Part shown: positions 6,401 through 24,122 of the stretch, one piece after another
How the letters are laid out: each line of letters begins with the position of its first letter
Numbering within the stretch: position 1 is the first letter of the stretch
Origin: Agrobacterium vaccinii
Lineage (GTDB): Bacteria; Pseudomonadota; Alphaproteobacteria; Rhizobiales; Rhizobiaceae
DNA: 64,000 nucleotides
Direction: 5' to 3'
NCBI RefSeq assembly: GCF_021310995.1
Contig: NZ_CP054151.1
Coordinates: forward strand, 468,501-532,500
The notes under the pieces: model-generated
What the model saw: only the letters and a program-made list of their open reading frames with translations
Told to the model about the DNA's origin: nothing
Database searches by the model: none
Made by a program: the position numbers and the translations under genes

Positions 6401-6896
6401 GCACGAGTCGGTCAAAGGACTGGTGGAGGATGTCGAGGGGCGCATATTGGCCCTGGGAAGCGCGCACTCGCTGGCCTCCAACCAGAAGCGCACTGCGGCC
6501 GTCGGCATTCAGGATTTGATCGAAACCATTCTGACGCCCTACCGTCGCCATGCGACGATCGACATCGAAGGCGGCGACCTGCCGATTGCAGCGAACTACA
6601 TAACGCCGCTGACGCTCATTCTGCATGAGTGGTCTACGAATGCCCTGAAACACGGCGTTCTGGGCAAACCCGACGGGCATTTGCGCATTCGCTGGGAAGA
6701 AACTGGCGATCAAATTAATTTGGTTTGGAACGAAACCGGCACCGAGCCCGTTGAGCAGCCGGGAGTAGCTGGGTTTGGAACAGTGCTTCTGACCAGTGCC
6801 GCCAAGCAAATTGGGGGTAGGGTTTCAACAGATGTCGATGGGGCGAGCTTGACGCACACCCTGACGATGCAGACCAAGGTTCGACATGACGCATAA
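3486..6896 (+). CDS. CheB-CheR-PAS-HWE histidine kinase fusion
   Basis: The product has 1136 residues and several domains: a CheB methylesterase (about 10-190) with catalytic triad candidates Ser18 (GSSAGG), His45 (VVQHLDP) and Asp137 (GTGADGSTG); a CheR methyltransferase (about 215-480) with the SAM motif GCSSGEEAYT; a coiled coil (about 633-708) of repeated TNEEL-type heptads; two PAS regions (about 708-945); and an HWE-family histidine kinase at the C-terminus (phospho-acceptor in NEMNHRVKN, then HEWSTNALKHG and the W-x-E element RIRWEETG). No transmembrane segment is seen. The start is TTG at 3486 with AAGGA seven bases upstream; the ATG at 3482 is out of frame. Its 3' end overlaps the receiver gene. 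Confidence 0.93.
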   Translation: MSQEYNLPSVPVVGVGSSAGGLEALREMLSAAEVPTGLAFVVVQHLDPHHESMLAELLDRHTGLNVLQCEGGEEIEADTVFIIPPGKGLSIEQGRLVLNDFAQPRGLRRPIDDFFISLANDQQSNAACVILSGTGADGSTGLRAIKENGGLCVVQEPSTAKYDGMPVSATGTGLVDFVVPPQQILSCIGGFFFRKSQGADKREASRVADIVDDLCVALRTTVGHDFAGYKQTTFVRRVERRMHVLGISKGSDYLTRVQTDTNECDALFRDLLINVTRFFRDRHSFDVLNELAITNLMRDAAGSEDGVRVWVPGCSSGEEAYTIAVLFAEAARKLDLPCNVQIFATDIDESMLKIAREGSYPNASLADIPHELQEHYVIPHKDRFNFIGQIRDMIRFSGHSLIKDPPFSKVDLVSCRNLLIYFDEKLQKKVMPLLHYAIRPGGFLFLGSSETVGRFDSVFSVVDQKARLFERLPGSPTYPIPLPGERRERRPAVSRAEVQKVTESIDEQAVNRLMERYIPASVVLDNDGQIVAAYGRLSRYFEFPVSAASETSAATLARPGVKEQLGALVRQARTTKKRVIARNVDVVTDFGSLKTEIICDPLDDNSYLVVFQESPVFTPLELTDVLELEHSDGHVEALERELRSAKHRLRSATEELETANEELKSSNEEMMSMNEELQSTNEELTTVNDELKTKVDEVTVANTDLRNFFDSTSLAVIVLDNDMRLRSYTKAATAIFPLQPTDRGRPLSDVASRFPALDFATRVHSVMADGIEYNQTVMDREQERTFSLRILPYRTANGTTGGATIVMTDISHAISVESQLAAEQERHELAIEAAGIGVWEYLPDRSEFVLGGAAMELLQTRDGTPALQAVLQNFSDTDRTHLRDALETAIHDHTGFELTSRIVGNDGRSRWLKTFARHVADSDPGRVIGVSVDVTAEYELAEARDLMLNEMNHRVKNLFAMIGGILRMAARKHESVKGLVEDVEGRILALGSAHSLASNQKRTAAVGIQDLIETILTPYRRHATIDIEGGDLPIAANYITPLTLILHEWSTNALKHGVLGKPDGHLRIRWEETGDQINLVWNETGTEPVEQPGVAGFGTVLLTSAAKQIGGRVSTDVDGASLTHTLTMQTKVRHDA

Positions 6897-7272
6897 GACT
6901 GTGTTGCTGGTAGAAGACGAAATATTTGTTGCGATGGATATTCAAATGACCCTTGAAGACGAGGGTTGGACCGTTGCAGGACCGTTTCCGAGCACCGCAG
7001 AAGCCCTGTCCTATCTCGACGAGAATATTCCGACCTGCGCGATTTTGGATGTTCGCCTGACGGATGGTGACGTCTTCCCCGTCGCCGACCGGCTGCGGGA
7101 AACCAATGTCCCCTTCGTATTCCATTCCGGCCACGCCGACGGACGCGCGCTGGAGGAAGTCTATCCGCAATCAGCCTTCTGTCAAAAGCCATGCCTGCCC
7201 ACAAGCCTCGTTCAGCAGGTTGAACGTCTGGCAGGATTTGAAGAGCCAGCGAGACGCTCAGCGGCGGGCTGA
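6886..7272 (+). CDS. Stand-alone response-regulator receiver (FATGUY-like)
   Basis: A 128-residue receiver without an output domain. The acidic pair (VEDE), phospho-acceptor Asp (AILDVRLTDG) and conserved Lys (CQKPC) are present. The segment PFVFHSGH resembles the FATGUY-type single-domain receivers that pair with HWE/HisKA2 kinases in alphaproteobacteria; this subfamily placement is inference. The ATG at 6886 lies inside the last codons of the kinase gene (11 bp overlap), implying translational coupling and making it the obvious phosphotransfer partner of that kinase. Confidence 0.9.
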   Translation: MTHKTVLLVEDEIFVAMDIQMTLEDEGWTVAGPFPSTAEALSYLDENIPTCAILDVRLTDGDVFPVADRLRETNVPFVFHSGHADGRALEEVYPQSAFCQKPCLPTSLVQQVERLAGFEEPARRSAAG

Positions 7273-7401
7273 TACTACCCGGATAACAAAAACGTTAAAT
7301 ACGCTCTTCAGCGGAACCTTTTTCTTTCCAGACCATTATTGACCGCAGCGACGAGGCTGGCTTCACAATGAAGCCTGTCCGGCGCCTTTCGGATTCTTGC
7401 T

Positions 7402-7599
7402 ATGGAAAGACGCATCTTGAACCAGAAAACACTGGTCGAGGTTTCAGTGCCCGACTGTAACGGCACGATGATCCCCTACGGCATCATGAACAGCGAACAG
7501 GCAGCCGAGCTGCCCGATACATACGAGATTTCGGTGGCGCATCTCGGAGGCGACGCGCAAGTGGCGTCAACTGATGATTCAGTCGAGTTGATGGTCTAA
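7402..7599 (+). CDS. Small hypothetical protein (65 residues)
   Basis: The frame reads MERRILNQKTLVEVSVPDCN and ends SVELMV. I do not recognise the family, and there is no signal peptide or membrane segment. It stands alone about 130 bp downstream of the receiver gene and ends inside a long inverted repeat that looks like a terminator. A partial EcfG-type promoter (GGAAC at 7313-7317 and CATT, not CGTT, 16 bases on) lies upstream, so stress control is possible but unproven. Confidence 0.55.
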   Translation: MERRILNQKTLVEVSVPDCNGTMIPYGIMNSEQAAELPDTYEISVAHLGGDAQVASTDDSVELMV

Positions 7600-7654
7600 A
7601 CACCGCTCAAACGAATAACGGCACCTCCAACTGAAGGTGCCGTTACGGTGTTTA
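7597..7654. terminator. Nested two-stem inverted repeat, probable bidirectional terminator
   Basis: An outer 9-bp stem pairs TAAACACCG (7597-7605) with CGGTGTTTA (7646-7654). An inner perfect 10-bp stem pairs AACGGCACCT (7617-7626) with AGGTGCCGTT (7635-7644), with an 8-base loop. It sits between two convergent small genes. The outer left arm contains the TAA stop of the 65-residue gene. Confidence 0.7.
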
Positions 7655-7663
7655 GGAAGATGA

Positions 7664-7822
7664 TTACAACACTCTTGGGATGTCGTCATTTTCGTCTGGA
7701 TTGGGAACCGGCAAATCATCTGGCAGCGTACCTGGTTCAGGTTCTTTCACCGGCGGTATATCGGGCTGCGGCGCCATCGGCGGTACGGGGCCTGGAACAG
7801 GCTCTACAGGAATCACAGTCAT
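7664..7822 (-). CDS. Small proline-rich acidic protein (52 residues)
   Basis: The reverse strand encodes MTVIPVEPVPGPVPPMAPQP and then an acidic Pro/Asp/Glu-rich stretch ending DDIPRVL. Thirteen or more prolines in 52 residues point to an extended, unfolded chain. A good ribosome-binding site (GAGGTG, about eight bases before ATG) supports translation. A perfect EcfG-type promoter on the same strand at 7948-7972 would give a leader of about 120 bases. That leader could hold a 35-codon frame (7834-7941) whose stop is 11 bases upstream of this start. Function unknown. Confidence 0.65.
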   Translation of the reverse strand: MTVIPVEPVPGPVPPMAPQPDIPPVKEPEPGTLPDDLPVPNPDENDDIPRVL

Positions 7823-7947
7823 CAGCTTTCACCTCACATAAGTTGGCGCGCAGTGCTGCTGTCGACATCGCCTCTTGGTCCACTTTCGTTCGCCAATTTC
7901 GGTCCAGTCGAAGGCTGCGCTGCCCGCCTCACCAGTCTCATGAAGTA

Positions 7948-7972
7948 AACGTCTTGATGCCATGAGGGTTCC
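7948..7972 (-). promoter_or_regulatory. EcfG-type general-stress promoter (perfect match)
   Basis: On the minus strand GGAAC (complement of 7968-7972) is followed by exactly 16 bases and CGTT (complement of 7948-7951). This equals the alphaproteobacterial EcfG/RpoE2 consensus. It faces the 52-residue proline-rich gene, 126 bp away. Confidence 0.75.
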
Positions 7973-7978
7973 GAAACG

Positions 7979-8179
7979 TTATGCGAAGCCCAGGGAGTTG
8001 CGAGCGACTTCTCGCTGAGCGCCGTAGTCACGCATGTGGGCCTCGTGGCCATATTCGCGAGCTGTAACACGGCTCGCCTCGACGTCCGGCACCTGCAACA
8101 AGGCGTCGGCGTAGGTGCCCGTTTCGTCTTCGAAGTCGAAGACGGTCGATGGTGCTGCGGTTTTCAAGAAATCGAACAT
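7979..8179 (-). CDS. Small hypothetical protein (66 residues), probable stress-induced
   Basis: The product begins MFDFLKTAAPSTVFDFEDET and is hydrophilic, with no membrane span. I do not recognise the family. A strong ribosome-binding site (GGGAGGAAG) lies just upstream, and a perfect EcfG-type promoter (8203-8227) sits a further 20 bp upstream, giving a short leader. Both points make this a well-supported small gene and suggest induction in the general stress response. Confidence 0.75.
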   Translation of the reverse strand: MFDFLKTAAPSTVFDFEDETGTYADALLQVPDVEASRVTAREYGHEAHMRDYGAQREVARNSLGFA

Positions 8180-8202
8180 GGCTTCCTCCCATTTGAAATC
8201 TT

Positions 8203-8227
8203 AACGCTCAGTTGGCGCCCCTGTTCC
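8203..8227 (-). promoter_or_regulatory. EcfG-type general-stress promoter (perfect match)
   Basis: On the minus strand GGAAC (complement of 8223-8227), a 16-base spacer and CGTT (complement of 8203-8206) match the EcfG consensus exactly. The distance to the ATG of the 66-residue gene (8179) leaves about 17 bases of leader that contains its Shine-Dalgarno sequence. Confidence 0.82.
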
Positions 8228-8573
8228 CTCCACCGTGACGCAACAACCAATGAGTATGAAAACAATCTTATAACACGTGTTTTTGACAATCCGTTACGCG
8301 ATATCGTTAAGAATATGAGCCGGGTAAATTGTCCCGTGTCCACACAGTTTGACCCGTCTCGAAATCGCCCCATTGAACCGCAGTATGGCCTTGATACCGC
8401 AAAGGATTGTGTGGCTGAACGGAACGGGTGGAACGACGGGGAGACCCGGGGAGTTGATGCCGGGGGACTTGATCCGAGCGAGCCACGATAAAGCTGGGAC
8501 AAGGCCGCACACATCCGAGAGACCCTTCTCACCGGTGCTACCCAAGAGCGCTGGACCATCAAGGAGTAGAGAC
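8228..8573. other. Non-coding gap upstream of thuA
   Basis: No convincing gene is visible in about 350 bp; frames crossing it lack ribosome sites and protein-like composition. Two promoter candidates face thuA. One is a sigma70-like TTGACA (8283-8288) with a weak -10. The other is GGAAC (8430-8434) followed 18 bases later by GTT (8453-8455), a near-match to the EcfG consensus with the longer spacer. A ribosome site (AAGGAG) precedes thuA. Confidence 0.4.
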
Positions 8574-9359
8574 ATGACCATCAACACCGTCGTTTGGGGC
8601 GAAAATGTCCACGAACACGAGAATGAGACCGTTCGTGGGATCTATCCCAATGGCATGCACACGACGATTGCCGATGCTATCAACCGGGAGCCCGATATCA
8701 ACGCCACGACAGCCACGCTTCAGGAGCCGGAACACGGGCTTTCGCAGGAACGGCTGGACCAGACGGATGTGCTGGTATGGTGGGGTCACAAGGCCCATGG
8801 CGAGGTTGATGACGCCATTGTCGAGCGCGTTGCAAGCCGCGTCTGGGAGGGCATGGGCCTGATCGTGCTGCATTCGGGCCATTTCTCCAAGCCGTTCAAG
8901 CGCCTGATGGGCACGCCTTGCGCGCTGAAATGGCGTGAGGCAGGCGAACGCGAGCGTCTCTGGACCATCAACCCACGCCACCCGATTGCCGCAGGCCTGC
9001 CAGAGCATTTCGAGTTGGAAAACGAAGAAATGTATGGCGAGCAGTTTTCCGTACCCGAACCACTCGAGACGGTCTTCATTTCTTGGTTCCAGGGTGGCGA
9101 GGTTTTCCGGTCCGGCCTGACATGGCGCCGTGGTGCGGGCAACATCTTCTATTTCCGCCCCGGCCACGAAACCTACCCAACCTACCACGACGCCAATGTC
9201 CAGAAAGTCATCGGTAACTCCGTGAAATGGGCCTATAACCCCTTGGGTACGCTGAAAAGCATTCACGACGCGCCCAACGTGCCGGTCGAATCCGCTCTGG
9301 AAAAGATCGAAGAGCGCGGCCCCAAACTCCACTCCGCAGGCGAAGCAGGTTACAGGTAA
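8574..9359 (+). CDS. thuA: ThuA family trehalose-utilisation protein
   Basis: A 261-residue cytoplasmic protein starting [20 protein letters not shown], with blocks typical of rhizobial ThuA ([46 protein letters not shown]). ThuA has a glutamine-amidotransferase-like fold and, with ThuB, acts in catabolism of trehalose and related disaccharides through 3-keto intermediates. The start at 8574 has AAGGAG upstream; the longer frame to 8349 is non-coding. The next gene starts four bases after the stop. Unlike the classical thu operon, no sugar ABC transporter genes are adjacent. Confidence 0.85.
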
Positions 9360-9362
9360 TTC

Positions 9363-10415
9363 ATGATGAGACTGGTTATTCTTGGAACGGGCGGCATGGC
9401 CAATACCCATGCCATGCACTTCTCGCTCATCTCCGGCGTAGAGCTTGTGGCGGCGATCGACGTGGATGATGTCGTGGTGCGCGGCTTCGCTGCCCGCCAC
9501 AATATTCCCTCTACGTTCACATCACTGGACGAGGCGATTGCGTGGGGCGAGTTCGACGCTGTGGCCAACGTTACACCGGATGCGATCCACCACCCCACCA
9601 CCCTCAAACTTTTAGCCGCAGGCAAGCATGTCTTTTGCGAAAAGCCGCTGGCCGAAACCTACGTCAAGGCTGCCGAGATGGCGGATGCGGCAGAAAAGTC
9701 TGGTCTCGTCGGCATGGTCAACCTGACCTATCGCAACGTCGCACCCCTTCAGATCGCGCGGCAGATGGTTCTGGAAGGCAAGATCGGCAAACTGCGGCAT
9801 ATGGAGGCGTCGTACCTCCAGAGCTGGCTGGTTTCCAAGGCCTGGGGCGACTGGATGACGGAGAGCAAATGGCTGTGGCGGCTCTCGACCAAGCACGGTT
9901 CCAACGGCGTGCTGGGCGATGTCGGCATTCACATTCTCGACTTCGCGTCCTACGGCGCGGGTAGCGATGTGGAACGCATCTTCACCCGGTTAAAAACCTT
10001 CGACAAATACGAGGGCAACAGGATCGATGTCTATGATCTCGACGCCAACGACAGCTTCACGATGACAGCCGAACTGGAAAACGGCGCCATGGGTGTCATT
10101 CACGCCAGCCGCTGGGCCACCGGCCATCTGAACGAATTGCGTCTTCGCCTGCACGGAGACAAGGGTGCCGTCGAAGTCATCCACACGCCGGAATATTCGA
10201 CGCTTCGCGGATGCCTTGGCGAGGACGTGGAAAAGGCGATCTGGCGAAACATCGAGGTCGAGCCGGTGGAAACGAACTACGAGAAGTTCGCCAAGGCTGT
10301 GATGGAAGGCGGCAAAGCCGACCCCGATTTCCGCCACGCCGCCAACCTCCAGAAGGTGTTGGACCTGTCCATCGTCACCGACCGGGAAAGACGCGAAATT
10401 GCGGTTTCTGCTTGA
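9363..10415 (+). CDS. thuB: Gfo/Idh/MocA family oxidoreductase, ThuB-like
   Basis: The product has 350 residues: an N-terminal NAD(P)-binding fold with GTGGMA, and the family signature FCEKPLAETY around residue 95, whose Lys is catalytic. It continues with the Gfo/Idh/MocA C-terminal domain (SNGVLGDVGIHILDFASYG). Such enzymes oxidise or reduce sugars at C3. Position directly behind thuA makes ThuB the likely identity, catalysing disaccharide 3-dehydrogenation or the reverse. Other substrates of this broad family cannot be excluded by reading alone. Confidence 0.8.
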   Translation: MMRLVILGTGGMANTHAMHFSLISGVELVAAIDVDDVVVRGFAARHNIPSTFTSLDEAIAWGEFDAVANVTPDAIHHPTTLKLLAAGKHVFCEKPLAETYVKAAEMADAAEKSGLVGMVNLTYRNVAPLQIARQMVLEGKIGKLRHMEASYLQSWLVSKAWGDWMTESKWLWRLSTKHGSNGVLGDVGIHILDFASYGAGSDVERIFTRLKTFDKYEGNRIDVYDLDANDSFTMTAELENGAMGVIHASRWATGHLNELRLRLHGDKGAVEVIHTPEYSTLRGCLGEDVEKAIWRNIEVEPVETNYEKFAKAVMEGGKADPDFRHAANLQKVLDLSIVTDRERREIAVSA

Positions 10416-10467: not shown

Positions 10468-11829
10468 TCAATCGAACAGCAAGTGCCAGTGCTGCGGAAA
10501 GGGCGTACCGCCGAAATCCACCTGACCCGCCTGCCCTACGGCGCGGCGGAGTCCCTTTTTCCGCAGAAGCGGCATCAGCATTTCAGGAATGATCGTCTGA
10601 TTGATGTATTCACCAAAGCACGTGTGAAGACCATTTCCCCATAAAATGTAATCTTCCGGTGGCCTGCCGAACCGAAACTGGTTGGGGCTGGAGACCGCAT
10701 GTGGATCGAACATGGCGGAGAGATTGAAGGCCAGCACCATCGTGCCCTGCGGTATCCTTCGCGCCCGCCATGTCGAGCGGGCAATGACGCTATCGCGGAC
10801 CGCCTGACGGTAGATCAGCGGATTGACCGGATTGTAGCGCATGGCCTCCATAAGGGCGGACGTGACGGCCTTGATATCGTTAGCGCGCGCTGCAATATGC
10901 GCCCTCTCCAGAGCGTCGGGCCGCTCCATCAACTGATCGAGCGCCTGGACCGCTGCCTTGTTCAAGGTGGGAATGGCGCCGATGACCATGCCGATCATGT
11001 TGTTCCTGATGTCGATGTCATCGAAACCCTCCCCACCGCTGGCCTGCAAAGCCAGACAGCGCGAAACAACGTCGTCTGCCCCCACTTGGCCCTTACGGTC
11101 TTCGATGCACTGGTCCAGATAGGCACGACAACGGGCCGCGGCATCCATTGCCTTTCCGGTAATGGCGGCATCTCCCTTGAGATCGATGAACAGGTACCAG
11201 AACATGATGGTGGTCCACTCGATCATCTCGGTGCGGGTAGGTCCCGGCGTGCCGAAATAGTCCGCAACCATGCGATAGGGAACCTCCAGCGTTAGCGCAT
11301 CGGGAACGTCGATGGCGCCATTTTTCGAGGCGACGATATCTTCCGCGCGTTGTCGAGCAGCCGGGATGATGATGCCGGGCAAATCCTCACGACGTATCGC
11401 AAGACGCATCAGCGACACATCATGGGTGTAGCGCGGTGTGTTCTGCATGCCCAAAAAGAAGTTCGATCCCGCCGTGATCGCCTGCATCTTCGGCTCGTAA
11501 ACGACGGCGAAATCACAGTCGCGAGCCAGCACCTCCCGCACGTCTTCGGCGCGTGTGACGATGGCGGTACCTGTGTTGGGATAGGCCGTTATCACCTGCT
11601 TCTTAAGGAGCAGATTGGGCGCGAAAGCCCGCAGCACCGCAAAGCCACGACGCAGCGTGACAGGCTCTGCGGCAAGTTTCGCAAACCCCGCCTCGCGTCC
11701 TTCCTTTGGAAGAAACAGCACAATCTGGACAGCGTTGGCAGCGAGGATGACGATGGAAACGAGCGCCTCGATGAGGACGCTGAACCAGATCAACAGGCTT
11801 TTCACGATATTTGCCGTGAGGCTTATCAT
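10468..11829 (-). CDS. Membrane-anchored cytochrome P450-like protein
   Basis: A 453-residue protein. An N-terminal hydrophobic anchor (about residues 5-40, ANIVKSLLIWFSVLIEALVS) precedes a P450 fold. The haem loop is WGNGLHTCFGEY with the thiolate Cys at about 404; Trp replaces the usual Phe. The K-helix E-x-x-R is EAMR. The I-helix reads GMVIGAIPTLNKAA: the Thr is present but the acidic residue of the usual A/G-G-x-D/E-T-T is absent, so normal O2 activation is doubtful and a peroxide-using reaction is possible. The start at 11829 has AAGGA seven bases upstream and is preferred over 11847. Last gene of a four-gene minus-strand operon, 37 bp after the DyP peroxidase. Confidence 0.85.
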   Translation of the reverse strand: MISLTANIVKSLLIWFSVLIEALVSIVILAANAVQIVLFLPKEGREAGFAKLAAEPVTLRRGFAVLRAFAPNLLLKKQVITAYPNTGTAIVTRAEDVREVLARDCDFAVVYEPKMQAITAGSNFFLGMQNTPRYTHDVSLMRLAIRREDLPGIIIPAARQRAEDIVASKNGAIDVPDALTLEVPYRMVADYFGTPGPTRTEMIEWTTIMFWYLFIDLKGDAAITGKAMDAAARCRAYLDQCIEDRKGQVGADDVVSRCLALQASGGEGFDDIDIRNNMIGMVIGAIPTLNKAAVQALDQLMERPDALERAHIAARANDIKAVTSALMEAMRYNPVNPLIYRQAVRDSVIARSTWRARRIPQGTMVLAFNLSAMFDPHAVSSPNQFRFGRPPEDYILWGNGLHTCFGEYINQTIIPEMLMPLLRKKGLRRAVGQAGQVDFGGTPFPQHWHLLFD

Positions 11830-11884
11830 CAGGCAATCCTTCGTCATCTCGGCAGATTTGGAGCTGTTTTCTTCCGAAACAATG

Positions 11885-13552
11885 TCAGGTCGGATCGGTG
11901 ACGCCCATGCCGATCATGCGCAGCGCCGTAACGCTGGGCACAAAGAAGTAATCGCCACCGCGCGACTCCACGAATTCGGGCAGATTTTTCATGATGAAGG
12001 GCGCCTGATCCTTTGCTGGATCGCCCGGCACGATGAATTTCGCACCTTCACGATGCCGCCCGACCATCGGGCAGGTATCGTTGCCCGCATTGGCATCCAG
12101 CCCGTAATTGACCCATTGCTGCTGCACGAATTCGAACTGCCGGTTGAGATTGGAGCAGAGGCAAAGCATCACGATGCCATGGTCGTCATCATCGGTCGAA
12201 TCCGGGCCGGACGAGCCGTAGGGCAGACCCCGCCGCAAAATACGACGCCGGTTGTTCAGCACCGAACCCAGCCACGTCTTGGGATTGTCGGATGCATAAT
12301 AGGGGTCCAGCTGATCGCGCGTATTGATGCGGCGAATATGGGCGGTGACGGGACATTTGATGCCTTCCGGGTCCGGCCTGTAGACGAAATCGTTAAGCTC
12401 AAGGGCAAAAGCCGCCATGGCCTTCTTGTCATCTGCCTTGTATGCCGCCATCGCTTTCGCCTGCACGGCCTTCCAATCCTCATAGGTGGGTGCCGCCATG
12501 ATGGGAATGCCGTCGGACCAGCGTCCGGCCATCTTTGCCATCAAGGTTTCCTGACCGACTTCCGGCGGACCACCGATCGCGGCAACGGCTTGATATTGTG
12601 CGGCGGCGGCAACGATGGCGTTGCGGAAGGACGCTACATTCTGGTGGAGTTTTCGATAGGCGAAAAAAGTGCCGTTGCGGCTGAAATCCAGCGGCATCGC
12701 ACTGCCGGGAATCTCCTGCGCCTCATCGGCATGACCCAGCAGAAACTCACCGGTTGCCAGCGGAGACCACTCGCCGCTACCGGACAATTTGCCACGACCG
12801 GGCAAGTTCAGTTTCATGCGACCGAGGGAATATTGACCCTCGAATGCCGGATCGCCGATGCCATCGGTATATCCGAAATGTTCCTTCGGCGTCGGTGCGA
12901 AATTGCCCTCTGCATCTTGCTCGAGAAGCGCCGTCAGGTTTTGCCAGCGGGGATCGGGGCCAGAATGTCCGTCCAGCAAAACGACGCCGCCATCCGAGCT
13001 TTCCGCCAACCCGACGATCCAGGATGTAATCCGGCTCAGTTCCGCGACGGCCTCGCCCGTCGCGGCCTCCATCTGGGCATTCAGCGTCACCAAAATATGG
13101 ACGCGGGTCAGGCCATCGGGATTGGGCTTTACCCACACGCGGTCCCAGCGGCAGCGTTGTTCATCCTTGTCATCGACGCCGTAGATTTCGTCACCCAGAA
13201 TTTGCGCGCGCGCCTCCATGCCCTCGATAAACTCGTCCGGCATGCCGCGCAGCGTGGTGCTGGGAACGCCCAGTGCCAGCAGGCCGGGAAATGTGAAGGC
13301 AAGATTGATGGCGACCTCTGGCCGTTCCTGCATCTGGAGATCATTTTCCGGGTTGGCGTCTCCGGGCTTGTCCTTGCTTGAAGGCCAGCGCAGTGCCGAG
13401 GTTACCCTGGGCCTGATGTATTCGACGAAAGCACGCCCTGCACGACCGCTATTGACGGTGAACAGCAGCATGCGGCCCTTGGGAAAACCCTGCTTGCCAT
13501 AGGCGGTGAGGACGTTGCCTTGAATATCGGCGAGATCGAGAAATTCGGTCAT
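11885..13552 (-). CDS. DyP-type haem peroxidase
   Basis: The product has 555 residues and starts MTEFLDLADIQGNVLTAYGK. DyP hallmarks are visible: the distal GxxDG motif (HFGYTDGIGDPAFEG) whose Asp acts in peroxide cleavage, NGTFFAYRKLHQNV, and the proximal haem His in CPVTAHIRRINTRDQ. DyP enzymes oxidise dyes, phenolics or lipid-like substrates with H2O2. No signal peptide or Tat motif is seen, so it is probably cytoplasmic. It lies 17 bp after a membrane protein gene and 55 bp before the P450 start; the pairing suggests a joint oxidative pathway. Confidence 0.93.
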   Translation of the reverse strand: MTEFLDLADIQGNVLTAYGKQGFPKGRMLLFTVNSGRAGRAFVEYIRPRVTSALRWPSSKDKPGDANPENDLQMQERPEVAINLAFTFPGLLALGVPSTTLRGMPDEFIEGMEARAQILGDEIYGVDDKDEQRCRWDRVWVKPNPDGLTRVHILVTLNAQMEAATGEAVAELSRITSWIVGLAESSDGGVVLLDGHSGPDPRWQNLTALLEQDAEGNFAPTPKEHFGYTDGIGDPAFEGQYSLGRMKLNLPGRGKLSGSGEWSPLATGEFLLGHADEAQEIPGSAMPLDFSRNGTFFAYRKLHQNVASFRNAIVAAAAQYQAVAAIGGPPEVGQETLMAKMAGRWSDGIPIMAAPTYEDWKAVQAKAMAAYKADDKKAMAAFALELNDFVYRPDPEGIKCPVTAHIRRINTRDQLDPYYASDNPKTWLGSVLNNRRRILRRGLPYGSSGPDSTDDDDHGIVMLCLCSNLNRQFEFVQQQWVNYGLDANAGNDTCPMVGRHREGAKFIVPGDPAKDQAPFIMKNLPEFVESRGGDYFFVPSVTALRMIGMGVTDPT

Positions 13553-13569
13553 GGAAGAGCAGCCTTTGA

Positions 13570-14538
13570 TCAGGAGCGGATAACGCCGGGTGACTGGGTC
13601 GGGCGGTCGATATCTTCAGGGGCGGTTCGGGCTACGAATTCCCGGAAGGCGGCACGAACCTGCCCTGCCGACGCCAGCTGGTTATCGCCGATGACATCCG
13701 TGAAATTCTGTTGCAGATAGAGGCTTTTGAGCACAGACCGGAGATCGGAATTGGGTGCTGCCGGCAGCGGCTTTGCACCTGCCCGCATGACCAGAAGGTA
13801 GTCCAGTCCCACGGCCAGAAGCGTGACGATGAACGCCACCAGAGCGTAGGTCATCCACGTGTTCATGGGGTGGTTATACGCCCAGGCAAAGAAGGCCCCG
13901 ACCAGACACCCAAGAAACGCGACGGCAGGAATGGCTGCCAGTATGATCAGCAGGCTCGTCGAAATGCTGGGAAACGGTGGCGGGGTGATCCAGTAATCGT
14001 TAAACGGCATGGTCGTTTCGACCTGTCCCTTGGCGACCCAGGCCGCGAAGCCCGCTGCATCCCGCACCGTGTCGAACTGAAGACAGTGCTGGAAGACGCT
14101 GCGCAGCTCCTTTTCCATCACGCTCCACAGATGCCTGAGATAGTCGGCAGGCTCGGTTTTACCGGTGCCGACGGGGTCGAAGTCTGCGGTGAATGCGAGG
14201 AAAGGCTGGCCAAGATGATCGACGGGCTGCGGATCGGTCAGCACGGTTCCACGCACGGCGCTCCACAGGCTGTTTTGCGGGACACGCCCATTAAACGCGA
14301 CATCATCGATGATGAAGAAACGGGCGAAATGCGTGCGATCGCTGCGGGCAAACGGGCTGTTGTCATCCCGGCTCTCCTTCGAGGTCATCGGCGATTGCTG
14401 GGCGGGCAAGAGCCTGTCCAGAGCGGTTCGCAGCGCATGCAGATGGCTAACCGGCGCCAACGCACCCGGATCGACAAGATCGGTCCTGATGGGAATGAGG
14501 ATCGTCAGAAAATAATGGCCACCATCCAGATTGGGCAT
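13570..14538 (-). CDS. Unrecognised membrane protein in DyP/P450 operon (322 residues)
   Basis: The N-terminal two thirds (about 1-190) is soluble, beginning MPNLDGGHYFLTILIPIRTD. It contains HFARFFIIDDVAFNGR and FLAFTADFD, which look like a compact alpha/beta domain. Two membrane helices follow (about 192-222 and 228-255) and then a cytoplasmic tail of about 70 residues. I do not recognise the family. The ribosome site (AAAGGCGAG) supports the start. Being 17 bp upstream of the DyP gene, it is presumably co-translated with it and might tether or feed the peroxidase. Confidence 0.75.
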   Translation of the reverse strand: MPNLDGGHYFLTILIPIRTDLVDPGALAPVSHLHALRTALDRLLPAQQSPMTSKESRDDNSPFARSDRTHFARFFIIDDVAFNGRVPQNSLWSAVRGTVLTDPQPVDHLGQPFLAFTADFDPVGTGKTEPADYLRHLWSVMEKELRSVFQHCLQFDTVRDAAGFAAWVAKGQVETTMPFNDYWITPPPFPSISTSLLIILAAIPAVAFLGCLVGAFFAWAYNHPMNTWMTYALVAFIVTLLAVGLDYLLVMRAGAKPLPAAPNSDLRSVLKSLYLQQNFTDVIGDNQLASAGQVRAAFREFVARTAPEDIDRPTQSPGVIRS

Positions 14539-14694
14539 GGGTCTCGCCTTTCATAAACTATTGGCGGAATGGAGTGAGCGGTCTGCGGCATCAACGACTG
14601 TGACTCTCCCCAGAGAAACCAATCGTCACACCAGAAACAGAGATCGTTTCGTATCAACGGCTACCAGCGCAGTGCACCGGGCATGGCCTTCGTC

Positions 14695-15354
14695 TCAGGC
14701 CTGCCGTGCAGGATGCTCCTTGAGCCACAAAAGACGGTTACGATCCGCTTTTTCAGCCGCCGTACTGGCGATGGGGGCATAACCGGGGCTTGGCAGCGAG
14801 TTCTGCATCTCTCTGACAGCCTTGCGGTAGGCCACCATGAAATCGGCATCGCTTTGCGCTGTCTGGTCTGACGTCATCAGTCCTAGAATGGCCTGGCGCA
14901 CCCGCAGTGCCGCCTTGATATCCCGCTGGCCGGTACCTGGCGTGGCGTTATAGTAATAGTCGTTGTCGATCTGATTGGCGCGGATATAGGTTTTGAACGG
15001 CGTGATCGGAATGGAATGCGGGTAGCCGGTGCTGGAATACCAAAACAGGTCCAGCCCGTTGGGAATGCCATCCGAAAAGGCATCGATATACTGATCCCAG
15101 GTGCCGTTGAAATTACTGCAAAACAGCATGTAGTCATTTTGGAGGGTCTGCTTGCCCTGCCCGTAATCCGGCCACTGATCACGCTTGATCAGCACCCAAC
15201 GGGCGAAGTGAATGATGGACAGGCCCAGCAGGCCGCCCAGCGTTGCCGGAAGCGCGCGGGCAATGCGAAATATGAACCTGTTAATCCACGTACGCCGCGG
15301 CTTCATCGGCGTGATGACGTTCATTCCATAGGCTTTGCCTGCGACGTTGGACAT
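14695..15354 (-). CDS. Unrecognised single-span membrane protein in DyP/P450 operon (219 residues)
   Basis: The protein starts MSNVAGKAYGMNVITPMKPR. A hydrophobic segment (ALPATLGGLLGLSIIHFARW, about residues 32-55) is followed by a soluble part rich in aromatic residues (NDYMLFCSNFNGTWDQYIDA; KTYIRANQIDNDYYYNATPG). The start at 15354 has a GGGGG ribosome-site-like run upstream; a longer frame to 15399 is less likely. It is the first gene of the operon, 156 bp ahead of the next. No family is recognised; the Trp/Tyr-rich soluble part could bind a hydrophobic substrate. Confidence 0.65.
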   Translation of the reverse strand: MSNVAGKAYGMNVITPMKPRRTWINRFIFRIARALPATLGGLLGLSIIHFARWVLIKRDQWPDYGQGKQTLQNDYMLFCSNFNGTWDQYIDAFSDGIPNGLDLFWYSSTGYPHSIPITPFKTYIRANQIDNDYYYNATPGTGQRDIKAALRVRQAILGLMTSDQTAQSDADFMVAYRKAVREMQNSLPSPGYAPIASTAAEKADRNRLLWLKEHPARQA

Positions 15355-15485: not shown

Positions 15486-15884
15486 TCAACTGTGAATGAT
15501 CTTCCAGACGCCGCGTGCGGCGGCAACGATTTCACCTGCTACCGTCAATTTTCCATCGAGGAAAATCAGCGTGCGCGTTTCCTTCAAAACCTCGCATCTT
15601 ATCTCGACTACATCGCCCAGCCTGACAGCGCGCATGAACTGCATGTCGAACTGAACCGTGCTTTGGCGGCGGTCAGGGGCATGGCTTCGTGCAGCGGTTC
15701 CCATGGCTCGATCCGCAAAGGTCATCAGCATTCCGCCCTGAACGAAGCCAGCCCGGTTCTTGTGTTTGCGCTCAGCGTGAAAGCGATAGCGGAACGGATT
15801 TTCGTTGCAGGCCTCGATGGGACCGACAAGATTGATGAATCCGTCGTCCTCAAGAGCCGACCAAGTCACTGCGTCATCTGTCAT
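15486..15884 (-). CDS. Hotdog-fold acyl-CoA thioesterase (PaaI-like)
   Basis: A 132-residue hotdog protein starting MTDDAVTWSALEDDGFINLV. The helix and active-site segment NRAGFVQGGMLMTFADRAMG is typical of PaaI/YbgC-like thioesterases, which release free acid from acyl-CoA. The ATG at 15884 overlaps the end of the upstream hydratase/dehydrogenase gene by 11 bp, so translation is coupled; the longer frame (to 16034) only copies that gene's DNA. Last gene of the catabolic operon. It may rescue CoA from stalled intermediates. Confidence 0.85.
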   Translation of the reverse strand: MTDDAVTWSALEDDGFINLVGPIEACNENPFRYRFHAERKHKNRAGFVQGGMLMTFADRAMGTAARSHAPDRRQSTVQFDMQFMRAVRLGDVVEIRCEVLKETRTLIFLDGKLTVAGEIVAAARGVWKIIHS

Positions 15885-17910
15885 TTTCCGTACTCGCGAC
15901 GTCCTTGGTGGCTTGGCGATATCCCATATGGGGATTCTCGTCGAGGGACTGCAACGCTGACGATGCCCATTCCTTCGATTGCCGTTCCAGCCAGTAGAGC
16001 GGGCCGCCCAGCTTGGCAGGGAACCCATAGCCATGAACCCAGACGAGATCGATATCCGATGGACGTGCTGCTATGCCCTCTTCCAAAACAAGCGCCGCTT
16101 CGTTGACGATGGCAGCAAGGGCGCGTTTCTGGATGTCGGCGTCTGTGAACTGATGCTGGGCAATTGCGCGCTCTTTGCGCCATACGCGTAGCATATCTCC
16201 ACCTTCCTGGCTTTCGACCCCACGACGCGCGCCTTCGGGATAGTCGTACCATCCCGCATTGGTCTTGCGACCGAGCCGCCCGTTTTCCACCAGCCGCTCA
16301 AGAAACGAAATCGTATCAGGCGGGTCGATACCTTCGGCGCGTCTGCGACTGCGGTTTGCTGCGGAAATATCGAGGCCGGAGAGATCGCCCACGGCAAACG
16401 GCCCCATGGCAAAGCCGAAGGCTTCCAGCGTCTGATCGACCTGCTGCGGTTCGGCACCCTGATCGACCATCACCTCGCATTGCAGGCGGTAGGCATTATA
16501 GATGCGGTTGCCGATAAAGCCTTCGCCGACGCCCGAGACCACCGATATCTTGCCGAGCTTGCGGCCCACGGCCAGCGCGGTTTTGAGAACCTCTGCTGAT
16601 GTCTTTTTGCCGCGCACGACCTCCAGCAATTTCATGCGATGCGCGGGCCTGAAGAAATGCAGGCCGACAACATTGGCCGGGTCGCGTGCTGCTTGCGCCA
16701 GAATATCGAGATCGAGATAGGAGGTGTTGGAGGCGATGATCGTATCGGGGGCGACTACGGAGTTCAGGGAAGCGATCAGCGCCTTCTTGATCTCCATATT
16801 CTCGAAAACAGCCTCGACCACCATATCGCAATCCTGGAATGTGGCGATATCGGCAGAGGTTGAAAAGCGGTTGGCGATCACCTCTTGAGCGGATGGTGTG
16901 GCCAGCATTGTCGCGAGACGGTCAGGCAGGGAGGCCAGGGCTTCGGCGTTCTGGTCCACAAGGCGAACCCTGTATCCGGCGGAGAGGAAGCAGGCTGCGA
17001 TGCCGGCCCCCATGGTGCCCGCGCCGACGATGCCGATGGTTTGCAGATTGCGCGCTACGACGTCTTTGGCATCACCCGTATCGCCAGCGCGCCGCTCGGC
17101 AAAGAACAGGTGGCGCAGGGCTGCGGATTCGTCGGTCATCCGCAGTCTCTGGAAAACGGCGCGCTCTTCCGTGAGCGCCGCATCGAAATCCAATGTGACA
17201 GCACGCCTGACGGCGGCGATGGCTTCCTCGACGCCGGGGTGACCACGGCGCTTGCGCTTCGCATTGGCGGCGGCCTTTTCCAGAGCGTCGGTGCTGAAGC
17301 TGGTGATGGGCATATCACGCACCCGCCGTTTTCCCGGTAGCGACCGGGCCAGTGCCGCAGCACCGACGCGCAAATCCGTCGCTATACGGTCGATCAGCCC
17401 TAGCATAAGCGCGTCCGATGCCTTGATGCGGCGGCAGGAGGTGATGATGTCGATGGCGGTGGCGGCGTCCGTCAGGCGCGGCAAACGCACCGTGCCGCCA
17501 GCACCGGGAATGATCCCGAATGTCACTTCCGGCAGGCCGACCACGGCATCTGCGGTGGCGATGCGGGCATCGCAGCCCAGCGCCAGCTCGAAACCACCGC
17601 CAAGGGCCGCGCCATGCAGCGCGGCAACGATGGGCTTTGGAAATTGCTCAAAGGCCGCGATGACAGCCGGAACCTGCGGGTCGGCGAGCGGGGCTGAAAA
17701 CTCCCGCAGATCCGATCCCGCCACAAAGGTTTTGCCCGCACCGATCAGAACGGCGGCGGTCACCGTATCGTCGGCTTCAAGGGTCGCCAGCGCCTCCAGA
17801 AGACCGCGACGCACCTCGATGGAGCCCGCATTGATCGGCGGATTGTCGATGACGATGAAGGCGATATCGCCATCGCGTTCGATACGAACGCGTGAAGTCT
17901 CTGTCTGCAT
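15874..17910 (-). CDS. Bifunctional enoyl-CoA hydratase / 3-hydroxyacyl-CoA dehydrogenase (FadB/FadJ-like)
   Basis: The product has 678 residues. An N-terminal crotonase domain (about 1-190) shows ALHGAALGGGFELALGCD and the catalytic-loop stretch GLPEVTFGIIPGAGGTVRLP. The NAD-binding 3-hydroxyacyl-CoA dehydrogenase domain (about 285-470) opens with IGIVGAGTMGAGIAACFLSA and includes NTSYLDLDIL and GLHFFRPAHRMKLLEVV. Two C-terminal dehydrogenase domains follow. It performs the hydration and second oxidation of beta-oxidation. It starts 15 bp after the aldehyde dehydrogenase gene, same strand. No thiolase gene is seen in the island. Confidence 0.93.
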   Translation of the reverse strand: MQTETSRVRIERDGDIAFIVIDNPPINAGSIEVRRGLLEALATLEADDTVTAAVLIGAGKTFVAGSDLREFSAPLADPQVPAVIAAFEQFPKPIVAALHGAALGGGFELALGCDARIATADAVVGLPEVTFGIIPGAGGTVRLPRLTDAATAIDIITSCRRIKASDALMLGLIDRIATDLRVGAAALARSLPGKRRVRDMPITSFSTDALEKAAANAKRKRRGHPGVEEAIAAVRRAVTLDFDAALTEERAVFQRLRMTDESAALRHLFFAERRAGDTGDAKDVVARNLQTIGIVGAGTMGAGIAACFLSAGYRVRLVDQNAEALASLPDRLATMLATPSAQEVIANRFSTSADIATFQDCDMVVEAVFENMEIKKALIASLNSVVAPDTIIASNTSYLDLDILAQAARDPANVVGLHFFRPAHRMKLLEVVRGKKTSAEVLKTALAVGRKLGKISVVSGVGEGFIGNRIYNAYRLQCEVMVDQGAEPQQVDQTLEAFGFAMGPFAVGDLSGLDISAANRSRRRAEGIDPPDTISFLERLVENGRLGRKTNAGWYDYPEGARRGVESQEGGDMLRVWRKERAIAQHQFTDADIQKRALAAIVNEAALVLEEGIAARPSDIDLVWVHGYGFPAKLGGPLYWLERQSKEWASSALQSLDENPHMGYRQATKDVASTENDR

Positions 17911-17925
17911 GATCTGGTCTGACCC

Positions 17926-19368
17926 TTATGCCTGGCTGACATATTTGACGGTCTGGAACGCTTCCAGTCCCTCGATGCCGCCTTCGCGGCCCTGTCCGCT
18001 ATCTTTGACGCCCCCGAACGGGGTTTCAGGCAGCGACGCCTGCCAATGATTGATGATGACGTTGCCGCTTTCGACGCGCTCCGCAACCTCGGAAATGATG
18101 CGGCTGTCATGGGTGAAAGCATAGGCAGCAAGCCCGAAGGGCAGCCGGTTCGCCAGCCGCATCGCATCCTCGATAGTTGCAAAGGGCTGCGTCACCGCCA
18201 GCGGCCCGAAGGGCTCCTCGTTCATCGCAAGGCTTGTGTCGTCGGCATGGACCAGCAATGTCGGCTCGAAGAAAAAGCCCTGATTGTTGATGCGGTGACC
18301 ACCGGCGGCGACCTTCGTGCCACGCGCATTTGCATCCTCGACAAACGCCTCGATGGCGGTGATGCGGCGCGCATGGGCCAGCGGGCCCATCTGCGTCGAT
18401 GCCACGCGCCCGTCTCCCACCTTTATCGCACGGGCGGCCTCGGCGAAGGCTTCGGCAAAACGGTCGTGCTTGCTTTCATGCACGAAAAAGCGTGTAGGCG
18501 AGGTGCAGATCTGCCCGGAATTGCGATATTTGGCTTTGGCGGCAGAGAGCGCCACCGCCTCGATATCCGCATCGGCAAAGATCAGCACGGGGGCGTGGCC
18601 GCCAAGCTCTGAAATCATCCGTTTCATGCCGAGAGCGGCCTGGGCGGCCAGCGATTTTCCCACCGCCGTCGAGCCGGTAAAGGTCACGCCCTTGATGACG
18701 GGTGAGGCGATTAGTTGTTTCGATATCTCCGCCGGATTGCCGGTGACGACGCTGAGCGCGCCTGCGGGCAGACCGGCTTCTTCCAGAATTGCGGCGAGCG
18801 CAAAGGTGCAGGCGGGCGTTTCTTCCGCAGGCTTCATCACCACCGTGCAACCGGCGGCAAGCGCGCCGCTGATCTTGCGCGACGGGGTGATCAGAGGCGC
18901 ATTCCATGGTGCAAAGGCCGCGATGGGACCGAGCGGCTCCTTCAGTACCATCTGGCGGATGCCTGGCTGGCGCGACGGGATGACCCGGCCATAGGCGCGG
19001 CGGGCTTCCTCGGCATCCCAGGTGAAAATGCCTGCGGCAGTCTCGACCTCGACTTTCGCCTCGGCCAGCGGCTTGCCAAGCTCTGTGCTGATCAGCCATG
19101 CCATGGCATCGGCGCGTTCGCGCAGCAGGCTTGCGGCTTTGAGCAGAATGGCGGCCCGGTCATGGGGCGATGTGGCGCGCCATGATTGAAATGCCCGGCC
19201 CGCAGCCTCGATTGCTTCCTCCACCTGGGGGGGCGTGGCATGGGGCATTTGCCCCAGAACCTCGCCGGTGGCGGGGTCGAGCACGTCAGTGCTGACATCA
19301 GGGCGATCATCGACCCAACGCCCGGCAATGAACAATCTCAAGGCGGGATAGCTCCTGTCCGCATCCAT
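17926..19368 (-). CDS. NAD(P)-dependent aldehyde dehydrogenase
   Basis: A 480-residue ALDH-superfamily enzyme starting MDADRSYPALRLFIAGRWVD. The nucleotide-binding loop FTGSTAVGKSLAAQ, the catalytic Glu in ISELGGHAPV and the nucleophile Cys in NSGQICTSPTRFFV are all present. It resembles the succinate-semialdehyde dehydrogenase-like branch. The ATG at 19368 with AGGAG upstream was chosen over a GTG at 19386. Within the catabolic operon it would oxidise an aldehyde to the acid activated by the CoA ligase; the zinc alcohol dehydrogenase at 29965-31035 could provide that aldehyde. Confidence 0.92.
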   Translation of the reverse strand: MDADRSYPALRLFIAGRWVDDRPDVSTDVLDPATGEVLGQMPHATPPQVEEAIEAAGRAFQSWRATSPHDRAAILLKAASLLRERADAMAWLISTELGKPLAEAKVEVETAAGIFTWDAEEARRAYGRVIPSRQPGIRQMVLKEPLGPIAAFAPWNAPLITPSRKISGALAAGCTVVMKPAEETPACTFALAAILEEAGLPAGALSVVTGNPAEISKQLIASPVIKGVTFTGSTAVGKSLAAQAALGMKRMISELGGHAPVLIFADADIEAVALSAAKAKYRNSGQICTSPTRFFVHESKHDRFAEAFAEAARAIKVGDGRVASTQMGPLAHARRITAIEAFVEDANARGTKVAAGGHRINNQGFFFEPTLLVHADDTSLAMNEEPFGPLAVTQPFATIEDAMRLANRLPFGLAAYAFTHDSRIISEVAERVESGNVIINHWQASLPETPFGGVKDSGQGREGGIEGLEAFQTVKYVSQA

Positions 19369-19382
19369 GGCGCGGTCTCCTC

Positions 19383-20246
19383 TCACGCTTTGCCCGCGCC
19401 TGTTGACCGGATCTTCTCCAGCACCGGGCCGAGATAGGTCATGAAGCCCTGGTGGTCCTCGCTCATCGGAAAATGGCCAAGACCTTTCATGATTACCGCT
19501 TCGGCGCCCTTGATACTGTCCACCAGCGCCAGCGTATCTTCGGGCGTGCAGGAATAGTCATATTCGCCGGTCAGCAGATAGAGCGGGCATTTGCCGGTGT
19601 CGATGCGCGCCACATCGCCGCGCATGTCGCCATCCTGCTTGTAGAAGAACAGATCGCCCTTGAAGATGCCGGGACCGCCCTGCATGTAATGCCACAGGGT
19701 TTCCCAGCGGTCGCCATCGGTTGCAAGCGGTCCGATGAGGCCTGAAACGATGGCCGCGCAGACTTCGCCGCCATGCACATCGGGGCGGTGCGTCCAGGAA
19801 ATATCGTAATAGGGGTTCACATGCGCGCCCGATTGAAGGCCGATGGCCGCGCGGAACAGTTCGGGGTGGCGGAGCGAAAGGTGCAGCACGGCGCGACCGC
19901 CGATGGAGCAGCCCATGACCACCGGCTTGTCCAGCTCAAGTGCTGTCATGATCGAGAGGATGATATCGACATAGCCTGCGGATGTCAGGCGATACTCTTC
20001 CTCATGCCAGCCGGTAGGCGGCGATGATTTGCCGTGCCATGGCATATCGAAGACGACGACGCGGAAGTTTTCCAGCACCTTTTCGTCGTTGAGAAGATTG
20101 CGATACTGGCGGCCATCGGAGCCTGCGGTGTGAAGGCACAGAAGCGGAATGCCCTGACCGGCTTCTTCCACATAGATCCTGTGGCTGCGACCGGCGATAT
20201 CGAGCTTGAGATAGCGTCCGACAATGGGTTCGAAGCTGGCGGTCAC
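19383..20246 (-). CDS. Alpha/beta-hydrolase
   Basis: The product has 287 residues and an alpha/beta-hydrolase fold. The oxyanion region is LLCLHTAGSDG, the nucleophile elbow is MGCSIGG (Ser about 119), and the C-terminal catalytic His is in MKGLGHFPMSEDH. No signal peptide. Similar enzymes hydrolyse esters, lactones or C-C bonds in ring-cleavage pathways. It overlaps the SCP2-like gene by four bases (20243-20246) and sits in the catabolic operon, so its substrate is probably an intermediate of that pathway. Confidence 0.88.
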   Translation of the reverse strand: MTASFEPIVGRYLKLDIAGRSHRIYVEEAGQGIPLLCLHTAGSDGRQYRNLLNDEKVLENFRVVVFDMPWHGKSSPPTGWHEEEYRLTSAGYVDIILSIMTALELDKPVVMGCSIGGRAVLHLSLRHPELFRAAIGLQSGAHVNPYYDISWTHRPDVHGGEVCAAIVSGLIGPLATDGDRWETLWHYMQGGPGIFKGDLFFYKQDGDMRGDVARIDTGKCPLYLLTGEYDYSCTPEDTLALVDSIKGAEAVIMKGLGHFPMSEDHQGFMTYLGPVLEKIRSTGAGKA

Positions 20247-20608
20247 GTGTTCACCTCCTCGCGAACGGCAGAAAAAATCTCTTTGAAATATCGCAGATTG
20301 GCCATGAAGGGATGCAGATTACCCTCGATCTTCAGATGGCGTGATTTCAGCAGCGCGAAGAGATCGTGATAGCCCGGTGCGGGCACCGCCTCGAAAAACC
20401 GCGCCCAGGAATCGGACGCAGCGCGCAGCGCAAAGGTCCAGCTCGGCATGACGAATGGACCTTTTTGAACCGAGGCGACACGACCCTTGTCGATATCGAT
20501 CAGAAAGGCATGTTCGCCGATCTCGACCAGAAAACGCAGGCTGACATATTGCCCGCGTCTGACCAGACCTTCTCTATGATTGATGATATCAGGAAGCGCT
20601 TCAAGCAT
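20243..20608 (-). CDS. Small SCP2-like (sterol carrier/lipid-binding) protein
   Basis: A 121-residue protein, MLEALPDIINHREGLVRRGQ. The pattern of strands (YVSLRFLVEIGEHAFLIDID, then KGRVASVQKGPF), a W-containing helix and HLKIEGNLHPFMANL fits the SCP2 sterol-transfer-like fold, though I cannot confirm membership without a profile search. Such proteins bind acyl-CoA or hydrophobic ligands. Its start is 24 bp after the acyl-CoA ligase gene, and its stop overlaps the hydrolase start. Confidence 0.6.
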   Translation of the reverse strand: MLEALPDIINHREGLVRRGQYVSLRFLVEIGEHAFLIDIDKGRVASVQKGPFVMPSWTFALRAASDSWARFFEAVPAPGYHDLFALLKSRHLKIEGNLHPFMANLRYFKEIFSAVREEVNT

Positions 20609-20632
20609 GTTTCCTCCTCCCTTATTGTCTTC

Positions 20633-22711: not shown

Positions 22712-22724
22712 TACGGGTCGACCT

Positions 22725-23894: not shown

Positions 23895-24122
23895 GATCAA
23901 TGCTCTCTCTTTAGACCGACATTGGCACCCTCTCGTGCCGCTGTCAGGATTTGGCCGAAAACCTCAAGCCTTCGCAACGTACTAGGCATCGGGACGCCAT
24001 GAGTTTTCCGCTCAACAGAACCGCATGCCGGTGCTTAACAACGGATCGATTGCTCGATATGACTCCTCGCAACGCTTGTATGGCTGCCTTGTGGCGCAGG
24101 CGTTTTTGCATGGAGGAAGCAA

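Follow-up and report, generated by a model that had tools for sequence, protein, structure and literature searches.

A stretch of 64,000 nucleotides from Agrobacterium vaccinii (contig NZ_CP054151.1, positions 468,501 to 532,500 of the forward strand), referred to here as the window and numbered from its first base, contains four consecutive minus-strand genes running from 15354 down to 10468. These encode two proteins of unnamed families, designated A and B, a DyP-type peroxidase (DyP) and a cytochrome P450, and were analyzed as a candidate multi-enzyme unit. In the order A, B, DyP and P450 they are as follows.

14695..15354, minus strand: gene A, 219 amino acids (aa), a probably ABM-like (ferredoxin-like) protein of an unnamed family, with ~73% mean column identity in a 13-member alignment
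13570..14538, minus strand: gene B, 322 aa, distant homologue of A with a transmembrane hairpin inserted in the fold
11885..13552, minus strand: DyP-type peroxidase, 555 aa, with Asp230 (GxxDG), proximal His405 and distal Arg440
10468..11847, minus strand: cytochrome P450, 459 aa, with a hydrophobic N terminus, Cys410, ExxR at 334-337, Pro293 in place of the I-helix acid, and Thr294 retained

Intergenic gaps of 156 bp (A/B), 17 bp (B/DyP) and 37 bp (DyP/P450), together with the coordinates and common strand, bear out an earlier sequence-only reading of this region, which had described four closely spaced same-strand genes encoding a DyP peroxidase, an odd, membrane-anchored P450 and two unrecognised membrane proteins. 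Identification of the peroxidase was confirmed by Pfam scores above cut-off for both DyP_N (31.9 bits, cut-off 27.5) and Dyp_perox_C (26.4, cut-off 20), and the P450 scored 45 bits against a cut-off of 22.8 for p450, with hydrophobic N-terminal stretches at residues 8-26 and 28-46 consistent with the membrane anchor. With NCBIfam models the window DyP fell narrowly below the TIGR01413 cut-off (92.1 against 100.5 bits, with a Frankia relative reaching 108.4) and the P450 lay under all listed NCBIfam P450 cut-offs. No NCBIfam family names A or B, no Pfam match was obtained for A, and the sole Pfam match for B, tetraspanin PF00335, was below threshold (19.4 bits against a gathering score of 32.1), so that B was not considered a tetraspanin. 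The genome contains a single copy of A and a single DyP. Terminator-like sites between 9300 and 20500 were not above chance (9 observed, 9.7 expected).

The description of A and B as membrane proteins held for B and failed for A. In B two transmembrane helices were indicated both by hydropathy and in the AlphaFold2 model (residues 194-220 and 226-254; pLDDT 88.9, pTM 0.82). In A no hydrophobic segment reached the threshold (mean hydropathy 1.6 over 19 residues) and the AlphaFold2 model was compact without a transmembrane helix (pLDDT 85.6), and A was therefore rejected as a membrane protein. The two models contain strands and helices in the same order, with B adding the two-helix hairpin at residues 194-254, and actinobacterial proteins of 181 and 207 aa that lack the hairpin, termed B', bridge A and B. 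Common to A, B and B' are an HxARW/F motif, then an xLFxxxFD/N strand and then a Y/F-rich C-terminal motif. Comparison of A-only and B-only profiles containing no bridging rows gave a collinear match over 138 columns (89% probability, E 2.2e-6); the first, narrow alignments had given 15.5% with E 0.0017 and no collinearity, and a figure of 99.95% was inflated because three B' rows were present in both alignments. On these profile comparisons A and B are distant homologues. Derivation of A or B from DyP was rejected, the corresponding profile comparison being empty (0.15% probability). Sequence searches of the PDB returned nothing for A at E 5 and one match for B at E 0.3, and Foldseek searches of the PDB returned nothing for either at E 0.001. 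Structure comparison of A and of B residues 6-183 recovered mostly dimeric alpha+beta barrel proteins with Z below 8; given these Z values and the lack of a significant Foldseek match, the ferredoxin-like (ABM-like) fold predicted from the models is graded as probable.

Protein relatives were numerous, with 2358 found for A among 2934 candidates, at least 1033 for B among the best 7996 scored and at least 1090 for the P450 among the best 7997 scored. A scan of species genomes with A yielded at least 77 loci, and all counts given for operonic loci cover those listed: 77 in all, 71 close-form loci once six divergent loci (L071, L072, L074-L077) are set apart, and 67 once four close-form loci ending before DyP are also removed. 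In all 67, A, B and DyP were collinear on one strand. The P450 gene lay behind DyP in 43 of these and inverted behind it in one (L063), and it did not follow in the remaining 23, of which four end within 300 bases. Median intergenic gaps in operonic loci were 18-30 bp. Pairwise distances of the four proteins were correlated across 43 loci and the window (r 0.77-0.91, uncorrected for species phylogeny), with 0.32 the best value from 500 permutations. Among the divergent loci, L072, L074 and L075 contained A, B or a B' without transmembrane helices, DyP and P450, Algoriphagus L077 contained a B'-A fusion plus DyP, and in L076 an A fragment adjoined a P450 with no DyP match. Crenothrix L071 had the order P450-A-B'-DyP; at 6205-9740 of this locus a GMC oxidoreductase and an alpha/beta hydrolase lie right behind the module. 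The next commonest neighbour among the clusters listed was a GST-like gene, found immediately behind P450 in seven loci (L019, L024, L028, L043, L045, L046, L067) whilst a more sensitive search placed one near 14 of 77 operons. The operon copy at L028 is complete with split reading frames, that is, a broken copy. In operons without a P450, a catalase-family protein was present only in L069 and L077. Ferredoxin and reductase families are not recurrent neighbours of the operonic loci, and such partners may lie elsewhere in the genome. Searches with A matched 7 of 387 genomes of the class and 27 of 398 of the phylum. In other phyla there were 4 matches among 246 Actinomycetota genomes and one, the seed itself, among 198 Bacteroidota genomes. 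None of the five same-genus genomes listed matched, and this sporadic presence excludes a universal unit.

In many rhizobia the components are joined in one polypeptide. Searching 297 Rhizobiaceae genomes with A gave matches in 36, and surroundings were compared for the 35 besides the window's own. One open reading frame of ~1,390-1,550 aa with domain order P450-B'-A-DyP was found in 27 of these, B'-A-DyP without P450 in one (L176) and a catalase-family gene with A-like and DyP genes in four; two further genomes had separate genes, as does the window, and one had no module. Around a weak match to A in G1311 no module components were present. Seven additional fusions outside the Rhizobiaceae set (L086, L087, L149, L150, L152, L153, L181) brought the total of P450-B'-A-DyP proteins to 34 (L086, L087, L149-L175, L177-L181), and B'-A-DyP also occurred as a single frame at L083. 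The B' domain is weak, and the profile picked it up in some fusions but not in others; in the 1,440-aa protein of L086, for instance, it covers residues 444-607. Hydrophobic segments between B' and A, seen in two example fusions, match the position of the B hairpin in the window. A Pararhizobium plasmid protein with 51% identity over the whole length of such a fusion is annotated only as 'cytochrome P450', and a Novosphingobium plasmid fusion as 'Dyp-type peroxidase domain-containing protein'; proteins bearing merely such names are four-part enzymes. Trypsin/DNA-RNA endonuclease-like or similar large proteins were also seen near rhizobial B'-A-DyP or P450-B'-A-DyP fusions (L193 2459-7718, L086 515-2782, L176). 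Because the four genes are found together in many genomes and, in numerous relatives, as a single polypeptide, the suggestion that they work together survived the neighbourhood survey proposed with the sequence-only reading. These data indicate that A, B, DyP and P450 almost certainly form a single functional unit, and a unit both conserved and fused points to an undescribed multi-heme enzyme.

The fusion loci are further distinguished by signalling genes. In 29 of the 34, the gene immediately upstream, on the same strand, encodes a class III cyclase (PF00211 plus TPR), and in 25 of the 34 a Crp-family gene lay downstream on the opposite strand (median distance 40 bp, maximum 5 kb), with both neighbours annotated as such beside the Pararhizobium fusion. 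By a sensitive search a cyclase homologue was detected at 33 of 34 fusion loci against 1 of 77 operonic loci, and a Crp-family homologue at 30 of 34 against 0 of 77. At a looser threshold cyclase relatives appeared at L055 and L077 and a Crp relative at L063, and the cyclase protein at L069 is of unrelated length. This arrangement favours a signal-making or redox-sensing role, in which the rhizobial fusion would be wired to cyclic-nucleotide signalling and would make or report an oxidised lipid or a peroxide. Such a role is nonetheless quite unlikely as an account of the unit, as neither gene was found around the separate operons, the window included, and any direct link from cAMP to a product is hypothetical. 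The fusions may moreover descend from one ancestor, in which case the cyclase/Crp synteny may be a single event kept in the lineage.

To characterize the two heme proteins, active-site residues were compared across all forms. The DyP Asp, His and Arg residues were kept in 69/69 operonic, 35/35 fused and 4/4 catalase-type sequences, and the P450 Cys ligand and ExxR in 48/48 operonic and 34/34 fused sequences. The P450 proved to be odd, as had been proposed, in that the usual I-helix acid is absent: Pro stands in its place in 46 of the 48 operonic P450s and in all 34 fused ones, the exceptions being the divergent L071 and L072. The Thr beside it remains in 42 of the 48 and in all 34, respectively. 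Pro was placed on the acid position because of a hidden Markov model (HMM) alignment to 5it1 and a related P450 in L080 reading GAVDTT; an alternative alignment to 9vgm is one residue off the 5it1 register, and a register with Pro on Thr, set by eye, was ruled out by the HMM alignment and the L080 GAVDTT. The acid-alcohol pair of conventional P450 monooxygenases is accordingly missing its acid. As far as can be judged from sequence, loss of this residue argues against an ordinary proton relay for O2 activation, whilst peroxide use is not proven thereby. We favour, by a narrow balance, a P450 driven by peroxide or hydroperoxide.

In a sister form of the module (L113, L116, L128, L129, L130, L132, L145, L146), the A-like gene and DyP have a catalase-family gene next to them, and this cassette often lies beside genes of fatty-acid metabolism. 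On plasmids of Agrobacterium pusense and Roseomonas mucosa the cassette is divergent from genes for an oleate hydratase, a 3-hydroxyacyl-CoA dehydrogenase and an acyl-CoA thioesterase, and in Sphingomonas naphthae it is followed by a thioesterase and a patatin-like phospholipase. The order in Deinococcus radiodurans is 3-hydroxyacyl-CoA dehydrogenase, A-like, DyP, catalase family, and in Acinetobacter lwoffii it is A-like, DyP, catalase family, 3-hydroxyacyl-CoA dehydrogenase. Among ten catalase-type loci, 3-hydroxyacyl-CoA dehydrogenase was present in seven and oleate hydratase in five. Copies of the A-like protein carried on Shinella, Agrobacterium, Sphingobium, Roseomonas and Novosphingobium plasmids share 97.5-100% identity, and such near-identical cassettes in five genera (L146, L191 and others), beside oleate hydratase, indicate recent transfer. 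An LCAT-like hydrolase lies immediately behind the P450 at L080. PDB entries 8re2 and 8re3 show the D. radiodurans DyP (DrDyP; 1022 bits over the whole length), whose gene lies between the A-like gene (L189 5950-6681) and the catalase-family gene (cassette at L189 5950-9183). A structurally characterized DyP is hence part of a sister operon, next to a candidate partner. In the accessible text of the structural paper, DrDyP is reported to be inactive at physiological pH, the trigger of activity is posed as a question, and the terms operon and gene cluster are absent (PMC10820274).

A catalase-family partner, found in D. radiodurans among others, and the TetR-type regulators that adjoin sister-form cassettes are features expected if the system serves peroxide defence, with DyP and a catalase-family or P450 helper destroying H2O2 or organic peroxides at the membrane and A and B acting as assembly factors. 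For the catalase-family proteins, however, neither Pfam (E 0.01) nor a phmmer search of PDB chains (E 0.001) gave a match, so that catalase activity is not a given; the gene may encode an ordinary catalase or a catalase-related allene oxide synthase. The reported inactivity of DrDyP at physiological pH, the oddity of a P450 as a scavenger and the sporadic distribution within the class (7/387) also count against peroxide defence, which we consider unlikely.

Upstream of the operon in the window, Pfam identified a series of catabolic genes.

15486-15908, minus strand: 4HBT thioesterase
15874-17910, minus strand: enoyl-CoA hydratase/3-hydroxyacyl-CoA dehydrogenase (ECH/HCDH)
17926-19386, minus strand: aldehyde dehydrogenase
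19383-20246, minus strand: alpha/beta hydrolase

This same-strand run (15486-23900) also contains an ADP-forming-type acyl-CoA ligase and an acyl-CoA dehydrogenase, with ABC transporter genes beyond it. Elsewhere in the window, a large CheB/CheR-like hybrid sensory protein (3486-7272, its translation judged by eye) overlaps a response-regulator-like open reading frame. The thioesterase and ECH/HCDH were rejected as conserved partners, homologues being present in 0/77 and 2/77 operonic loci, respectively, and the catabolic genes are context outside the conserved unit. This lack of conservation counts against a role in carbon-source catabolism, whereby the unit would oxidise a lignin-type or xenobiotic substrate, aromatic or otherwise, and the upstream acyl-CoA genes would degrade the product. 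Besides the same-strand arrangement, that role draws on the GST-like gene near some operons and on the association of class V DyPs with lignin in the accessible text of a DyP review (PMC8197335). DyP, on the other hand, has no evident secretion signal as judged by hydropathy, and we regard carbon-source catabolism as decidedly unlikely.

The features read directly from the sequences are collinearity, the fusions, the DyP heme-ligand and distal residues, the P450 heme signature minus the I-helix acid, the homology of A and B and the membrane hairpins. Both B and the N terminus of the P450 carry a membrane anchor, as does the stretch that joins B' to A in the fusion. On this basis we propose that A and B, acting in substrate binding or as a scaffold, would keep DyP and the P450 joined at the inner membrane. 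DyP would act as the peroxidase half, and the P450 might draw oxygen from peroxide or an organic hydroperoxide with no redox partner, in the manner of hydroperoxide-rearranging P450s; in the sister form the catalase-family heme protein may take the corresponding job. A lipid substrate is the leading guess mostly because of the fatty-acid neighbours of the sister form, and is advanced tentatively, with some doubt; the window's own upstream acyl-CoA genes fit it, yet are unconserved. The role in lipid-hydroperoxide chemistry already raised by the sequence-only reading is plausible, with indirect evidence. The full proposal, one membrane-anchored, peroxide-driven two-heme unit with oxidised acyl lipids as the most likely substrate class, has in our estimate slightly less than an even chance of being correct.

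Several observations weigh against this proposal. Lipid-related genes are seldom found around P450-type operonic loci, with 3-hydroxyacyl-CoA dehydrogenase at 1/77, ECH/HCDH at 2/77, and oleate hydratase, patatin, LCAT and three thioesterases at 0/77. The ten catalase-type loci are not independent, as several are near-identical plasmid copies and six were picked by plasmid search. Absence of a P450 behind DyP in 23 of 67 close-form loci means that the P450 is not essential to the unit. Retention of the I-helix Thr leaves a loss of O2 activation unproven, the distant L080 P450 retains the I-helix acid, and a Methylorubrum sister locus has a ferredoxin and reductase with an ordinary AGHETT-type P450. 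A bolder version of the proposal, which we hold to be improbable, is that of a new class of bacterial oxylipin-type synthase. Its P450, two ABM-like domains and DyP would work as one machine anchored in the membrane, in rhizobia as a single protein, and would convert a membrane-derived acyl hydroperoxide to a signal; the rhizobial form would be coupled to an adenylate cyclase and a Crp regulator of its own. In this version A would provide the activation that DyP enzymes such as DrDyP otherwise lack, and DrDyP would seem inactive at neutral pH because it was studied without its partner.

The accessible text of the DrDyP paper calls it unclear what DyP peroxidases do physiologically and which substrates they use in nature (PMC10820274), and a partner set conserved from Actinomycetota to Alphaproteobacteria, and fused in many rhizobia, offers a direct route to a DyP substrate. 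The analysis also names two protein families for which Pfam and NCBIfam have no model; in predicted fold, A and B residues 6-183 resemble dimeric alpha+beta barrel proteins such as ABM monooxygenases, TcmI cyclase, mutarotases and IsdG. For the peroxidase, the best PDB sequence matches are class V DyPs (DrDyP 8re2/8re3 and the ancestral D-type 7anv), with which Asp, His and Arg are shared; the difference lies in the obligate A/B partners and the frequent P450, and the words 'P450' and 'fusion' do not occur in the accessible text of the DyP review (PMC8197335). The sister form resembles catalase-related allene oxide synthase/hydroperoxide lyase systems, as far as these are described in the sources available, in its putative catalase-family heme protein replacing the P450, and differs in that no lipoxygenase was seen in the loci examined. 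The fungal DOX-LDS, DOX-AOS and DOX-EAS enzymes are alike in combining a peroxidase-type heme domain and a P450 in one polypeptide, and in a P450 partner without conventional electron supply. In the accessible sections of a 2026 paper on these dioxygenase-P450 fusions, the P450 partners are described as self-sufficient and the 9-AOS partners as having a Pro in SRS4, within (V/A)PxT or TPxG (PMC13049297); this Pro is a parallel rather than a homology, its spacing being different from the PT found here. The peroxidase half here is DyP rather than a cyclooxygenase-type peroxidase, no An_peroxidase domain being present and Pfam finding only DyP and p450 in the window proteins and the L086 fusion, and in the fused form the P450 comes first, with two A/B domains and a transmembrane hairpin between it and the peroxidase. 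Searches of the open-licence PMC literature listed no description of a DyP-P450 fusion or of this operon. Coupling of a peroxidase to a P450 is already known, whilst the use of DyP as the peroxidase together with partners from two unnamed families, and the fusion of all four parts, are new as far as the literature searched extends.

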